In this document: piece after piece, positions 58,512 to 64,000 of the stretch | Layout of the letters: each line of letters opens with the position of its first letter | Numbering within the stretch: position 1 is the first letter of the stretch | Source: Chryseobacterium balustinum | GTDB taxonomy: Bacteria > Bacteroidota > Bacteroidia > Flavobacteriales > Weeksellaceae | DNA: 64,000 nucleotides | Assembly: GCF_900168205.1 (NCBI RefSeq) | Contig: NZ_FUZE01000001.1 | Location: 682,001-746,000 of the forward strand | Reading direction: 5' to 3' | Translations under genes and position numbers: made by a program | The notes under the pieces: generated by a model | The model's input: the letters and a program-made list of their open reading frames with translations, nothing else | Database searches by the model: none | Told to the model about the DNA's origin: nothing

Positions 58512-60815
58512 TTACGCTAAAGAAACTCTCATGGCAAGCAACCCTGTAATTCCCTGTAGATCTTCAACTCTTAAAAGTTCAACATCAGATTTTAAAATAT
58601 TTTGTTTCTGAAGTTTATTGATGTATTGTAGATATTCACGTTGATTTTCCAATCCGAAATATACAATGGTAATTTTTCCGGGGCAGGTAATTCTTTCGGT
58701 AGAATCTTTGATATGGGCTTTTTCCAATCTTTTTTTGATGATCTCAAAATTAGAATTAAATGCACCGTCTACATCAAAACGTTTTTCATCCATTCGGAAA
58801 CGGATATCTATTTTTTCATTATATACAAAAATCAAAGAAGCAATATCGAGCGGAACCGGAAGATCTTTTTTGAATAAACGAAACTCATGTTCCATTGCAC
58901 AAAGTGTTTCCAGCTGCCAATATCTTAATTCATTAACGATTTTCGAAGAATAGGGTAGTTCTGGAGCAATACTTGGACCGATGTAAAGATTGTGCTCAAC
59001 ACCATCCGACTTAAACCTTTCGAAATAATGCGGGAAAATTTCCTGTGCGGCCACCTGTTTTTGGTCTAAAATATCGGCCAGTTTACGGTTGAGAAGCGTA
59101 ATAGAATCATCTAGATTTTTTCTGTTGGCATAAAAAAGATCATTCTGCGTAAAAACCTGACTAAAGTAACCTTTGATTTTATCTTTAATGTTTTCATCAC
59201 TTTTCACCTCAAGCTGACCCTGCAGGTAAGGATGGATTTCTTCCCGTAAAAGTCTTTGGAAGCGTTGTTCTGTATCTGCTTTTATTTCATTATTCAATTC
59301 ATTTTCAAAAACATCCAATGCCAAGGAATACTTTTCAGATTCTGAGGAATTCAGTGTTGTCATACCTCCCTGAAGTCCGTCTATTTGCTGATTGAGATCT
59401 TCCAGCATCAGATTAAAACGCTTGTCTGATGAAGCACGAATGTCTGAAAAACTAAACAAAGGAGTGAGATTTTTAAATGAAATCTCTTTTAAAGTATATA
59501 TTTTTTTTGCTAAATAAGCATTGAAGTAACGCTCTGCTTCATTCCTGAATTTCCAGATGACGCTGTCATGAATCGTTGTATATTCACGCTGAATGATCGC
59601 TTCAATCTGATTATTTCTTTCATACGAAAATCTGCTGAGTGAGAAAATAATCATATCGGCAACAAACTCGAGTTTTTTGAGTTTTAAGCCATTCAAACTA
59701 TTGGCTATAGGCGAAGTAAACTCCATCATTGCTAATAGCTCATTGTCTTTCATAATCGGAATGACCATGAAGCTATTGATGTTATTATCTTTTAAAATAC
59801 TGAAAGAAGGGAGTTTTTTAATCTCATCATCAAGCTTGTCGACGTTAGAAACTACGACAGGCTTTGAGTTGTAACTAATGTTTTCAAAAGCAGTTTTCCT
59901 TACCTCTTCGTCAAAGGTATTGATCCAAAAATCGAGAAGATAATTGGTGAAAACATTCTCATAAATAGGTAGCTTTTCGAGCCTTTTGTTTTTAGTATTA
60001 AAGAGCATCAAACCAAAATTGAGCTCGGCAACATCAAAATAGGATTTAAATATTTCTTTTAAATTTTCATCAGGTGACGGATTTTCCAAGTCAATTTTAA
60101 TCATGCTCGACTTCAAATCAGATAATGCTACTTCTGAAGTACAGTCGATGAGAGAAATAATGCTGAATCCGTTTAAAATCCACGATTCCGGTTGGAAGTG
60201 TTTTTTCCAAAGCTGTACATCATCTAAATTTTCAAGCAGGATATCTAAAATATCATCCGGCGGAATTTTGGTTCCTTCAGCAGGATAAACATCGCTGAAA
60301 TCTGAATTGACCGTGATTTTATAATGCTTCATAATTCCCTGTTTATCGGGAATGTCGTAATAAAATGGGATGGTAACTTTAATATCTTTTTTAAGGTAAG
60401 TCTGCAAAATCAGGCAACAGCAAAAGACGTAATATTCGTCATCACTGATGTCTCTGAACTCGATTTCAAAATCTTTTCCTGCGTCATTTAAAATATTCTG
60501 AAATCTTTCGGTATAATTGAACGTAAGATTGGTAAGCGGAATTCCTGCGGCTTTAATTTCATTTCTCGTTAAACCGGTAGGGAAGAGGTCTGCCAATAAA
60601 AGTCTGATGAGGTCTTTGTGCTTTTCAAACACCGAAAGATCCTGAAAACCGTCTCTTAATTCTTTGAAATTTTTGGTTTTCTCAATCAAAGATTCTGCAT
60701 AATTGGCGCGATACTCTAAACGATCATTGTACCGAATATGCTCCAACACATCCAAATATTTTTTGAACGATATAAAAACCTGAAACGGACTTTCTTTCTT
60801 GTAGAGATTTGCCAA
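58512..60815 (-). CDS. Large GAF-domain protein
   Basis: A 767-residue cytoplasmic protein. A GAF-like domain lies near the middle (about 265-410): LMLFNTKNKRLEKLPIYENV, FSILKDNNINSFMVIPIMKD and LAMMEFTSPIANSLNGLKLK fit the strand order of GAF folds. A long helical part follows (420-600, with many Lys and Glu), and then a C-terminal alpha/beta part (LYIGPSIAPELPYSSKIVNE and so on). No kinase, cyclase, EAL or HTH domain is visible, so the output is unclear. It is convergent with the bestrophin gene. GAF domains often bind cyclic nucleotides, which is of interest next to an HD-PycTM protein. Confidence 0.78.
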   Translation of the reverse strand: MANLYKKESPFQVFISFKKYLDVLEHIRYNDRLEYRANYAESLIEKTKNFKELRDGFQDLSVFEKHKDLIRLLLADLFPTGLTRNEIKAAGIPLTNLTFNYTERFQNILNDAGKDFEIEFRDISDDEYYVFCCCLILQTYLKKDIKVTIPFYYDIPDKQGIMKHYKITVNSDFSDVYPAEGTKIPPDDILDILLENLDDVQLWKKHFQPESWILNGFSIISLIDCTSEVALSDLKSSMIKIDLENPSPDENLKEIFKSYFDVAELNFGLMLFNTKNKRLEKLPIYENVFTNYLLDFWINTFDEEVRKTAFENISYNSKPVVVSNVDKLDDEIKKLPSFSILKDNNINSFMVIPIMKDNELLAMMEFTSPIANSLNGLKLKKLEFVADMIIFSLSRFSYERNNQIEAIIQREYTTIHDSVIWKFRNEAERYFNAYLAKKIYTLKEISFKNLTPLFSFSDIRASSDKRFNLMLEDLNQQIDGLQGGMTTLNSSESEKYSLALDVFENELNNEIKADTEQRFQRLLREEIHPYLQGQLEVKSDENIKDKIKGYFSQVFTQNDLFYANRKNLDDSITLLNRKLADILDQKQVAAQEIFPHYFERFKSDGVEHNLYIGPSIAPELPYSSKIVNELRYWQLETLCAMEHEFRLFKKDLPVPLDIASLIFVYNEKIDIRFRMDEKRFDVDGAFNSNFEIIKKRLEKAHIKDSTERITCPGKITIVYFGLENQREYLQYINKLQKQNILKSDVELLRVEDLQGITGLLAMRVSLA

Positions 60816-60982: not shown

Positions 60983-61060
60983 TTTAATACAAAACCCACT
61001 GCAATTGAGCTGGGTTTATTTTTATATGCTCAAAAGTCGGGAGACTTTGCACAGCGGGGA
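60983..61060. repeat. Terminator plus GCTCAAA-hairpin module, copy 1
   Basis: AAACCCA (60992-60998) pairs with TGGGTTT (61011-61017). After a short T-rich spacer comes GCTCAAAAGTCGGGAGACTT and then TGCACAGCGGGG (61028-61060), in which AAAGTC and GACTTT pair around GGGA. The same layout repeats about 140 bp to the right. Confidence 0.6.
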
Positions 61061-61120
61061 TTGATGTTTTTATTGTCGTTATAGAAGTGGAGGAAAGCTA
61101 TATACAAAAATAGAATGCTT

Positions 61121-61200
61121 TTTAACACAAAAGCCTCACATTTTGCGAGGCTTTATTTGAATTATTAGCTCAAAGTCAGGAGACTTTGCGTAGCGGGACT
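61121..61200. repeat. Terminator plus GCTCAAA-hairpin module, copy 2
   Basis: AAAGCCTC (61130-61137) pairs with GAGGCTTT (61147-61154). Then follows GCTCAAAGTCAGGAGACTTT and GCGTAGCGGGAC (61168-61200), in which CAAAGTC and GACTTTG pair perfectly around AGGA. It lies directly behind the stop codon of the gene at 61206. The terminators differ in sequence while the GCTCAAA hairpin is conserved. Confidence 0.65.
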
Positions 61201-61205
61201 TTATT

Positions 61206-61565
61206 TTATGGTGATGGCAATTTTAAATCTTGATCCTCATAATTAAGTCTCTCAACTTTATTTGGATTTTTAATTAAAAGCTCTAAAGATCCTTTGGGTT
61301 TTAGTATTGAATCTTGTATTTCTATCTTGTTTTCCCAATCTCTATATATGATTATACTATCTTTTTTTCCATACACGATATATGGTATACCATGATTTTC
61401 AAAATCAATTGTTTTTTTATAAACTATTGATTTTATTTCTCGATTTCTCATTTCATCTAAAAAACTTCTGTTATTACGATTTTTGGAAGAAAAAATAAAA
61501 TTATATAAAATTACCACACCGATAATAATTAGAATTATTATTAGATTTTTGTTCCTTTTTGACAT
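61206..61565 (-). CDS. Small membrane-anchored protein (immunity-like)
   Basis: A 119-residue protein. One N-terminal membrane helix (about 9-26, NLIIILIIIGVVILYNFIF) is followed by an extracytoplasmic beta domain: REIKSIVYKKTIDFENHG, then KDSIIIYRDWENKIEIQDSI and KPKGSLELLIKNPNK. I do not recognise the family. A truncated paralogue lies upstream at 61784-62149 and shares KIEI-x-DSI-x-K-x-KGSL. Both follow an orphan reading-frame tip, the arrangement expected of immunity genes in a polymorphic toxin locus. That role is inferred. Confidence 0.65.
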   Translation of the reverse strand: MSKRNKNLIIILIIIGVVILYNFIFSSKNRNNRSFLDEMRNREIKSIVYKKTIDFENHGIPYIVYGKKDSIIIYRDWENKIEIQDSILKPKGSLELLIKNPNKVERLNYEDQDLKLPSP

Positions 61566-61783: not shown

Positions 61784-62149
61784 TTAAAAATTAGTTGTTA
61801 ATATTTCTTCTTCATACTTTTCGTAGTCTAAAGTATCTATTTTTTTACTGTTCTTAATTATAATCTTCAAAGAACCCTTTGATTTTATAATAGAATCTCC
61901 AATTTCTATTTTTTCATCCCATCCTGTATGAGTAGGTAAACTATCTCTTTCAAACACGACATATGTAGCTCCGTGATTATCATAATCAGTACTTTTACGA
62001 ATAACAACTGATTTAATTTTTTTACTTTTAATTTTTCTATATAATAAACTATTTAAAGTATCATAATTTAATGGTCGATTATAATAATAGATAAAAATTA
62101 AACATATAATACTTAAAACAATGTCTAAGTTGGTTTGAAGACGTACACC
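61784..62149 (-). pseudogene. 5'-truncated paralogue of the immunity-like gene
   Basis: The frame is open from 62149 to a stop at 61784 but has no ATG, GTG or TTG near its beginning. It reads through a membrane helix (IVLSIICLIFIYYYN), then KKIKSVVIRKSTDYDNHGAT, GWDEKIEIGDSIIKSKGSL and KIIIKNSKKIDTLDYEKYE. It aligns along its whole length with the protein at 61206-61565, including the helix, the N/D-HG turn and KIEI-x-DSI. It is most likely a decayed duplicate that has lost its start. Confidence 0.6.
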
Positions 62150-62855: not shown

Positions 62856-63491
62856 TTAATGATTTTCAAACCAGTATCTAGTAAACTTTTTACCTCCAAC
62901 AATTCCAAATTTATATGAATCTGGTTCTTCGTCTTTTACATAATCACTTGGTGCTGGACAATCAAAAATATTTGTATCCAATTTAATTATTTCAAGTTTT
63001 CCATTATTATTTATTTGATATAAATAATGAATTTCAAAAAATTCATTTCTATCATTTATTTTATACTTACCAATTGCTAATCCATGTTTTTTGTTTTCTT
63101 TATCTAATTGACAAATTGAATAATCAAATTCTTTCTTTATTCTTAAAGTATCTTTTAATATATCATTTTGAACAACAAATAAATATCGTGTATTCGTGTG
63201 AGGCTTTATTTTTAATAAATTAGCTTTATCACTAGCAATTAATTCAGTAATAGTATTATTACTTTGTTCTATTTTTTGCCATCCTTTTTGAATAAAATAC
63301 TTAGAATTTTCTTTGAAAATTTTCTTAAGTATTTTTGATTCTAAAATAATAAATGTTTCATTTTTAGAGATTTTATCCGAATAACTCTCCAAAGAAAATG
63401 GCTTATTTAGTATACTGTTTTCTTGTCCCTTACAAAAAAAACAAACTAATATTAGTATTATAAAACGAAAGTTATAAATTCCTTTGGTCAT
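62856..63491 (-). CDS. Exported protein overlapping the M23 peptidase gene
   Basis: A 211-residue protein when started at the ATG at 63491, which gives a clean signal sequence (YNFRFIILILVCFFCKGQEN). The formal frame extends further upstream into the M23 gene, without conservation. The mature part is rich in Lys, Asn and Ile: KNETFIILESKILKKIFKEN, ANLLKIKPHTNTRYLFVVQN and RNEFFEIHYLYQINNNG. The start overlaps the M23 stop by 20 bp, so both are co-translated. If the M23 protein attacks peptidoglycan, an exported partner is the expected immunity protein. Function is inferred from context. Confidence 0.65.
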   Translation of the reverse strand: MTKGIYNFRFIILILVCFFCKGQENSILNKPFSLESYSDKISKNETFIILESKILKKIFKENSKYFIQKGWQKIEQSNNTITELIASDKANLLKIKPHTNTRYLFVVQNDILKDTLRIKKEFDYSICQLDKENKKHGLAIGKYKINDRNEFFEIHYLYQINNNGKLEIIKLDTNIFDCPAPSDYVKDEEPDSYKFGIVGGKKFTRYWFENH

Positions 63492-64000
63492 TTTTGGGAG
63501 GATTCCACTTGGTTTTTGTACCATTTTGGTCGTATTTATAATTAACGGCATCATCTTGATCTTTTGTATTATATGAGTTTAGCTTAATAAATCTAGCAGG
63601 ATTAGTTCTTTTTGTTTTTCCTGTTCCGTAAGCATTTTGAACAGTTGCAATTTCTAAATGTAAATGAGGACTCGGAATATCGTTTGCAATACTACCAGAA
63701 ACACCAGAATATCCAATAAGAGTACCTGCAGTAATTTTCCCACTATTTACTACTCTTTTACTCAAGTGCATATAAATAAAATATACGTTGTCGTCTTCTT
63801 TTATATCAATACCTTTTTCTTCTCCTCTTGTAAATTCTAATTGATAATTTATCTTTTTTTCTTGTTCAAGTAAGTCTTTTACATTTTCAATTTTAATTCT
63901 AATTGTTTGACCTGCAGAATTTCCTGGAGTTGATTCTACAACTTCACCATCCAAACATGCATAAACCGGCGTTCCTTCCGATTCACCTTTAATAAATGGC
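63472..64000 (-). CDS. M23-family peptidase (LytM-like), C-terminal part
   Basis: The frame enters from the right edge, so the N-terminus is missing; 175 residues are visible. TPVYACLDGEVVES, then YFIYMHLSKR, GTLIGYSGVSGS and the zinc motif PSPHLHLEIA (HxH) are the M23 LytM pattern. The C-terminus is a polar tail with NPARFIKLNSYNTKDQDD and KTKWNPPKNDQRNL. M23 enzymes cut peptide crosslinks in peptidoglycan. Many Bacteroidota T6SS or Rhs-type effectors carry such a domain at the C-terminus, so this could be an effector. The rest of the protein, outside the window, would decide. Confidence 0.8.
   Translation of the reverse strand, partial: PFIKGESEGTPVYACLDGEVVESTPGNSAGQTIRIKIENVKDLLEQEKKINYQLEFTRGEEKGIDIKEDDNVYFIYMHLSKRVVNSGKITAGTLIGYSGVSGSIANDIPSPHLHLEIATVQNAYGTGKTKRTNPARFIKLNSYNTKDQDDAVNYKYDQNGTKTKWNPPKNDQRNL

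Follow-up and report, generated by a model that had tools for sequence, protein, structure and literature searches.

What does a short palindrome mark when it appears twice at one chromosomal locus, each time beside a different terminator and close to genes that look like immunity genes? We asked this of the window, meaning the whole stretch of 64,000 nucleotides of Chryseobacterium balustinum DNA analysed here. It holds two copies (n = 2) of an imperfect palindrome of ~31 nt, 139 bp apart. An earlier note on this DNA had described two hairpins about 140 bp apart with differing terminators beside them, and both observations were borne out: the copies occupy 61028–61059 and 61168–61197, and the terminator stems read AAACCCA..TGGGTTT (60992–61017) and AAAGCCTC..GAGGCTTT (61130–61154). 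We call the copies REP1 and REP2, after the identity established below.

Two hairpins and their terminators at one locus

The features on either side of the two hairpins are as follows.

58512–60815, minus strand: 767-aa backbone gene, conserved in the genus (a DNA probe matches 173 of 173 genomes), with variable cassettes upstream of its start
60992–61024, no strand assigned: terminator-like hairpin 1 (module A, G055-type allele), from sequence and folding; colinear in G055
61028–61059, plus strand: REP1, GCTCAAAAGTCGGGAGACTTTGCACAGCGGGG; GCTC(A)AAAGTC-GGGA-GACTTTG-CAC and foot AGCGGGG, which points right, towards the immunity-like genes
61064–61125, no strand assigned: further, partial copy of the region upstream of the 767-aa gene, G093 type, beginning ~4 bp past the REP1 foot
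61126–61160, no strand assigned: terminator-like hairpin 2 (module B, G093/G111/G141-type allele), from sequence and folding; a similar module lies at C42 of the same genome
61168–61197, plus strand: REP2, GCTCAAAGTCAGGAGACTTTGCGTAGCGGG; GCT-CAAAGTC-AGGA-GACTTTG-CGT-AGCGGG
61206–61565, minus strand: 119-aa immunity-like orphan gene, probably membrane-anchored, its 3' end facing the REP2 foot; putative function from context
61784–62122, minus strand: remnant related to a 129-aa immunity-like gene of G165 (81% DNA identity to L190 9980–10318)
62229–62810, minus strand: 193-aa lipoprotein-like protein, immunity-like by context; no family match in Pfam or NCBIfam
62856–63554, minus strand: 232-aa protein, immunity-like by context; no family match in Pfam or NCBIfam
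63472–64000, running on past the window (L080 4473–6737), minus strand: 3' portion of the gene for a 754-aa, effector-like protein; it has an M23 peptidase domain and matches chitinase GH19 at a score under the cut-off

In folding, REP2 clearly outdoes its shuffles (z −3.12; 1 of 200 as good); REP1 has one extra A and is slightly decayed (z −2.05; 8 of 200 as good). The REP2 foot ends 8 bp from the stop codon of the 119-aa gene, and in gene direction, on the minus strand, the order is gene stop, hairpin, terminator. REP1 stands directly behind the partial copy of backbone DNA, not behind a gene. Terminator 2 with REP2 resembles a module (79% over ~90 bp) that stands, at C42, behind an Rhs gene with its lipoprotein immunity-like gene. 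The earlier note had read the arrangement as a variable terminator followed by a constant hairpin, one after each cassette. The terminators do differ, but in gene direction the order at REP2 is the reverse, and the recurrence at C42 means that the terminator is not simply variable; likewise, REP2 does follow a gene, whereas REP1 has no gene directly before it.

The product of the 119-aa gene matches FtsH_ext in Pfam below threshold only, and nothing in NCBIfam. The 129-aa gene of G165 follows a long repeat-type (Rhs-like) gene, and the 754-aa M23 peptidase gene of the window lies upstream of two immunity-like genes. Chance origin of the hairpin and plain duplication of a terminator were both ruled out by the pattern counts against reversed-pattern controls given below. 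As a known RNA family the hairpin was also rejected, the four Rfam matches all falling far under gathering scores.

A RAYT-associated REP element

The consensus of 237 distinct sites, 31 nt long, reads GCT-CAAAGTC-RGGA-GACTTTG-CGC-AGCGGGG. Its structure comprises seven pairs, one unpaired position, two pairs, a 4-nt loop and an unpaired foot, whose gene-strand sequence is CCCCGCT. At the position beside the inner stem, 180 of the 237 sites have no pair, mostly T against C. The outermost pair covaries (G-C in 129 sites, C-G in 43, A-T in 14): 202 of 237 sites have a standard pair there, and 2000 shuffles, which ignore relatedness, never gave more than 152. Past the foot, the 237-site consensus holds no conserved sequence. 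The shared pattern with a purine-rich tetraloop that had been described from the window alone is thus a real hairpin, with its parts reassigned: the loop is RGGA, and AGCGGGG is an unpaired foot.

This hairpin is a REP element belonging to a flavobacterial RAYT (TnpA_REP) transposase. In several genomes (e.g. at L041 and L068), inverted pairs of it frame a gene for a 201-aa HUH/Y1 transposase, which matches Pfam Y1_Tnp and NCBIfam NF047646 (REP_Tyr_transpos, REP-associated tyrosine transposase; 96 bits, cut-off 80). Across an alignment of 22 RAYT sequences, N59, H60, H62, W122, Y143, S163 and S164 are invariant and Q123 is present in at least 90%. A PDB sequence search with the RAYT gave no match, and a fold search with a model of modest confidence (mean pLDDT 58) placed 4er8, a RAYT–REP complex, as the best PDB match. 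Among 22 loci with a close RAYT (at least 66% identity), hairpins lie on both sides in 14, on one side in 2 and on neither in 6; at 46–54% identity, none of eight RAYT loci has this hairpin. Conversely, 15 of the 80 loci fetched by the hairpin alone, among the matches listed, encode a RAYT or a piece of one, further genera among them. Genomes with a close RAYT carry a mean of 5.5 hairpin copies (n = 22) against 1.6 in genomes without (n = 146; Mann–Whitney p 8e-6), five genomes with only short RAYT pieces having been set aside, and 88 of the 146 without a close RAYT still hold copies.

Measured against REP definitions, the element is an imperfect palindrome of 20–60 nt able to form a hairpin, an inverted pair of it flanks a RAYT gene, and it is extragenic and repeated in the genome, with 81 of 86 scored sites outside long ORFs. 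The REP and REPtron systems described in PMC2817692, PMC6006769 and PMC8266576 are alike in the imperfect palindrome, the stem mismatch, the unpaired foot and the inverted pairs around a Y1 (HUH) transposase; they are also alike in being extragenic and in part clustered, in occurring in genomes without a RAYT and in the covarying stem. A stem bulge is also present in E. coli REPs and is needed there for activity (PMC8266576). Unlike REPs as these sources present them, the flavobacterial element has the foot CCCGCT (AGCGGGG) instead of the GT[AG]G of the GTAG super-family, reaches few copies per genome, keeps much the same sequence in many genera, and lies at the edges of accessory cassettes. 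High abundance is a usual rather than a strict property of REPs, and at no more than 19 copies per genome (up to 2 mismatches) this element falls short of it; more than 100 copies per genome is given as usual (PMC2817692), and 20–100 or fewer for many families (PMC3733652).

The transposase itself resembles a variant or sister clade of TnpA_REP subclass 2.6 (RAYT group 5), judged by its motifs. PMC6006769 describes this subclass from Bacteroidetes as having atypical, non-GTAG structures on its flanks, of which the genome contains further copies, and the RAYT of this hairpin shares with it NH[LIV]H, WQ, the C-terminal SS, the non-GTAG hairpins and the Bacteroidetes host. It departs in the Y motif, published as YIH[QN]NP, which is YIHLNP in the CAAAGTC clade; YIHQNP occurs at L111, L113 and L115.

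A second family of REPs, alike in the foot but different in the stem (GCACGAGC..GCTCGCGCYAGCGGGG), accompanies a second RAYT clade (L055, L112, L116). When we searched generically for any stem joined to this foot, most matches (51) were of the family studied here and other stems came up 1–4 times each, with three matches in control regions and none in reversed sequence; a pattern dedicated to the second family matched 22 times in 643 kb and 0 times in 324 kb of control regions. At L055 (836–5010, G015), two long RAYT copies of the second clade and two short remnants lie within ~4 kb. L068 (4509–9093, G037) holds two close REPtrons and an internally deleted one within 5 kb of an array of toxin- and immunity-like genes, with an in-frame stop in one RAYT copy. 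At L041 (4984–6047, G001), a REPtron has on one side a repeated piece of a toxin-like gene that lies upstream, and on the other the apparent C-terminal end of another toxin-like gene, a position that looks like a displaced toxin tip.

One family across many Flavobacteriia

In the genome of the window (4.86 Mb), the pattern CAAAGTCNNGAGACTTTGCNNAGCGNG occurs five times at up to 3 mismatches and its reversed form not at all. Two of these REPs lie in the window, one at C42 and two at C17. The C17 pair (L078 6720–8860) stands in tandem after a CBASS-type pair of SMODS and S_4TM genes. A search of the same genome for a cognate RAYT found none, the best match being partial at 43% identity. Its own Y1 transposases were rejected as candidates as well, as none of the eight Y1_Tnp matches has the hairpin within ~1.5 kb and the sole RAYT-like one is that partial match. 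Because the hairpin is a REP and the only RAYT-like gene found is such a distant, partial relative, this genome seems to hold orphan REPs.

Within the genus, 113 of 173 genomes carry the pattern at up to 2 mismatches, with 371 copies in all, a maximum of 19 in one genome and 0 in reversed controls. At family level (up to 1 mismatch), it was found in 89 of 246 genomes and 8 of 33 genera. A contig scan recovered at least 116 stretches, with 80 loci listed, and the matches listed include Chryseobacterium, Flavobacterium, Kaistella, Myroides, Aquimarina, Maribacter, Polaribacter, Cloacibacterium and others. The REP family is present across many Flavobacteriia, and its sequence is much alike between genera.

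The foot mostly faces the stop codon of accessory genes

The placement sample covered 40 regions with 94 hairpins, of which 86 had a good foot and 8 were dropped for a poor one. A motif test set 18 of the 86 aside as RAYT-flanking, and ORFs came from a simple caller. Five of the 68 non-RAYT sites lie inside ORFs and 63 are intergenic; in the intergenic sites the foot points towards a stop codon in 53 and towards a start in 10, and towards a stop in 29 of 34 when only the first site per locus is counted. A scatter over random intergenic places, which the earlier note had named as the outcome that would speak against it, was therefore not what we found. Terminator-like hairpins within 90 bp, in either direction, accompany the loop side at 35 of 68 sites and the foot side at 14, and in gene direction only, 21 and 11. 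A strict rule that joins every REP to a terminator was rejected, as our simple detector finds a terminator-like hairpin at only some half of the sites.

Among genes ending at a REP foot, 21 of 27 have no Pfam match, against 6 of 20 random control genes from the same contigs (Fisher p 0.002). This comparison is small: it used 27 of the 32 host genes found and 20 of 34 control genes, four ORFs below 70 aa and the window's own gene (sub-threshold match only) having been left out. Many host genes are also short, and short genes match Pfam less often. The six foot genes with a match are S_4TM (a CBASS effector), AbiJ_NTD4, LRR-TIR, Kelch, DUF6794 and DUF6705. The foot shows no enrichment of genes labelled as immunity or defence (3 of 27, against 2 of 20 controls, Imm51 and HEPN_AbiU2), and the proposal that the hairpin always follows immunity-like genes is rejected as a rule. 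In a wider tally over 36 of the 40 regions, 143 REP-neighbour proteins matched 115 families and 136 control proteins 202 (3 of 139 control proteins were dropped for size). RHS_repeat and TIR_2 appeared in two members each among the REP neighbours, and so did housekeeping families (Cpn60, topoisomerase, glycine cleavage P-protein). From the Pfam and neighbour counts together, REPs follow mostly uncharacterised accessory genes, immunity genes included, without specificity for immunity.

At L065 (4234–6240, G035), REPs lie within larger direct repeats that contain long runs of GATTCAAGATT-like simple repeats. At L066 (4152, 5009 and 5310), another repeated palindrome, GCTGGCGCAAGCGTCCCGCTTGTG, precedes each REP by ~135 bp and is possibly a further REP-like family.

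Homology between species mostly ends at the foot

Between species, homology stops at the REP, mostly at its foot, at the site of the 767-aa gene and at roughly nine other loci. We counted alignments of at least 120 bp between the retrieved loci of different genomes, keeping the longest per site and genome and dropping those that overlap a RAYT; many pairs are counted reciprocally. Of 70 site-by-genome pairs whose alignment reached the REP, the alignment stopped at the foot in 53 and on the loop side in 9; in 8 it ran on through the REP, 7 of them at 100% identity and evidently from the same genome in two collections. An earlier count that kept RAYT-overlapping alignments (328 foot, 11 loop, 10 through) was discarded. 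At control intergenic midpoints in the same regions, 34 of 100 alignments passed through and 55 ended on one side; since controls often lose homology too, part of the breakpoint signal is general variability.

Among the 53 foot-end pairs, 29 come from the 767-aa gene site and relatives of module B, 7 are probably remnants of RAYT elements and 3 fall within one genome. The remaining 14, between genomes, spread over seven loci, several with just 100–150 bp of loop-side homology. Foot-end alignments stop mostly 7–14 bp past the stem, which is the end of the foot; a few stop at the stem itself, among them those with G141, where the foot is missing. No similarity past the foot was found in any of 11 pairs compared.

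At the 767-aa gene site, G000, G055, G093 and G111 carry different genes and have backbone and REP in common up to the foot. The same holds for G037, G064, G093 and G055 at a probable topoisomerase site (the G064 contig ends 29 bp past the foot), and for G043, G119 and G063 at a probable groEL site, where G119 and G063 have a further REP in common before they diverge. These site names draw on Cpn60_TCP1 in two neighbour members, Topoisom_bac in one, and a readable groEL-type C-terminus. The converse also occurs: C42 and an unrelated site in G165 share the REP and an immunity-like gene (98% over 455 bp, 91% over 730 bp) and differ on the loop side, the other break falling ~15 bp from the stem. 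A 392-aa gene at the groEL site stands behind a CAAAGTC-type REP in G043 and, in G047, ~8 nt behind a REP-like hairpin of the second family, with a different stem and a similar foot. A REP is not required for turnover, as the cassettes of G068 and G165 at the 767-aa gene site differ from the others and no REP was found there. In the groEL-site sequences inspected, the far end of the cassettes has no REP.

Two alleles of a locus end in tandem

Through terminator 1 and REP1, G055 and the window run colinear (92.5% over 2061 bp); the homology ends at the REP1 foot (window 61060), and the sequences beyond are unrelated. At the corresponding position G093, G111 and G141 have terminator 2 with a REP, and these run on without a break into the region upstream of their 767-aa gene; the G141 REP lacks the foot, and its contig ends 26 bp past the hairpin. 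Window positions 61064–61196 match G093 at 95.5%. Terminator 1 with REP1 is the G055 form, and terminator 2 with REP2 the G093/G111 form, of the same locus end. The window looks like two cassette ends stacked in tandem and joined at the REP1 foot, so that the alleles of sister species (G055 on one side, G093 and G111 on the other) explain the doubled hairpin. G119 and G063 have the same tandem REP layout. One suggestion of the earlier note, that the hairpins are left over from lost cassettes, fits this arrangement. Its other suggestion, that they mark cassette exchange, holds in part: REPs do mark cassette edges, where alignments mostly end, but they belong to a RAYT and are not sites dedicated to immunity cassettes.

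The C42 copy carries, besides the similar terminator, 80 bp of the upstream region of the 767-aa gene (85% to G068). Beside this REP module lies a stretch (L079 9100–9423), probably a transposase remnant, with matches at numerous places across the genus, frequently two or more in a single genome. Terminator, upstream piece and multi-match remnant together suggest that a cassette end from the 767-aa gene site was moved to C42.

How the joints may arise

The reading that we think probably correct is that REP elements with terminators sit at the 3' edge of accessory cassettes, that they form a shared block where cassettes join the backbone, and that the window stacks two such ends. It builds on the identity of the hairpin as a REP, the orientation of its foot, the loss of homology at the REP and the two tandem alleles. 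A RAYT acting in trans on single-stranded hairpins would, by analogy with its family, have spread the REPs. Copies, often with a terminator, would have come to rest at the 3' edge of cassettes with the gene-strand foot CCCGCT facing the stop codon, and REP plus neighbouring terminator would then act as a short constant block that joins different cassettes to the same chromosomal backbone. Exchange would most simply proceed by homologous recombination or mispairing through that block. In the window, a resident G055-type end (terminator 1, REP1) would have been joined at the REP1 foot to a G093-type end made of the upstream piece of the 767-aa gene, terminator 2, REP2 and the orphan immunity-like genes. 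Joining at the foot by a RAYT is possible within this reading, and a role in the 3' UTR may coexist. Counting against it are the low copy number (five here, at most 19 per genome), the lack of a cognate RAYT among the genes found in this genome, the absence of enrichment for immunity genes and the housekeeping neighbours. Mobilisation by the RAYT and the route of recombination are inferred, and the joints may be RAYT-driven or homology-driven.

A more active role, which we consider unlikely, would have the RAYT cleave at the foot and join incoming single-stranded cassettes, so that REPs would be attachment sites, integron-like in effect. The stops at the end of the foot, 7–14 bp past the stem, would suit such cleavage, as would the 392-aa-gene cassette behind differently stemmed hairpins in G043 and G047, the REP and immunity-like gene common to C42 and the unrelated G165 site, and the stacked REP and cassette layouts of the window, G119 and G063. 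It sits poorly with a genome in which no cognate RAYT was found, with the lack of conserved sequence past the foot and with the far cassette ends that carry no REP in the groEL-site sequences inspected; PMC6006769 also says that REPtrons do not appear to transpose as a unit. REPs could instead be nothing but 3'-UTR hairpins that protect mRNA 3' ends or help termination, with cassettes turning over by other routes and homology ending with the gene. The position behind stop codons, often before a terminator (loop side 35 of 68, foot side 14 of 68), agrees with this, toxin–immunity genes turn over fast anyway, and cassettes differ in G068 and G165 with no REP in sight. We nonetheless find it doubtful, because it leaves unexplained both the same REP in species whose genes differ up to the foot and the partial second copy of backbone joined at the REP1 foot.

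Integron cassettes carry a palindromic attC site behind each cassette, and the arrays at L060, L061 and L325, in which every gene is followed by the same palindrome, resemble that layout. Here the palindrome belongs to a RAYT, which inverted pairs of it flank, and the attC/attI core motif was not seen in the 237-site consensus; that the hairpin is an attC-like site, or the end of another mobile element without a RAYT, is accordingly highly improbable. Orphan Rhs tip–immunity arrays contain, in tandem, Rhs core fragments, displaced tips and immunity genes. L325 shows such tandem displaced tips and immunity-like genes, C42 has an Rhs gene with one immunity-like gene, and the window has immunity-like orphans only; the arrays seen here differ in the REP and terminator module at the 3' border of units.

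Meaning for accessory genes in Flavobacteriia

It is conceivable, though we would not expect it, that a transposase-born palindrome is the standard 3' joint of accessory cassettes in Flavobacteriia, with RAYTs acting at the foot in an integron-like exchange that needs no integrase. If so, immunity, defence and other genes would be inserted behind REPs, several in a row, at fixed places in the chromosome. Among the titles and abstracts that searches of an open-access library brought up, none links REPs or RAYTs to cassette edges.

Pseudomonas also has a REP/RAYT system, and PMC3390384 places many strain-specific genes in REP deserts and names homologous-recombination sites as one proposed role of REPs. 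The placement described here is the opposite: one REP family lies at joints where accessory genes, some of them for immunity or defence, differ between species. The old proposal that REPs serve recombination thus becomes directly testable, and the thinly described RAYTs of Bacteroidetes (subclass 2.6) gain a defined substrate. The foot side of these REPs is, in turn, a handle for finding uncharacterised accessory genes.
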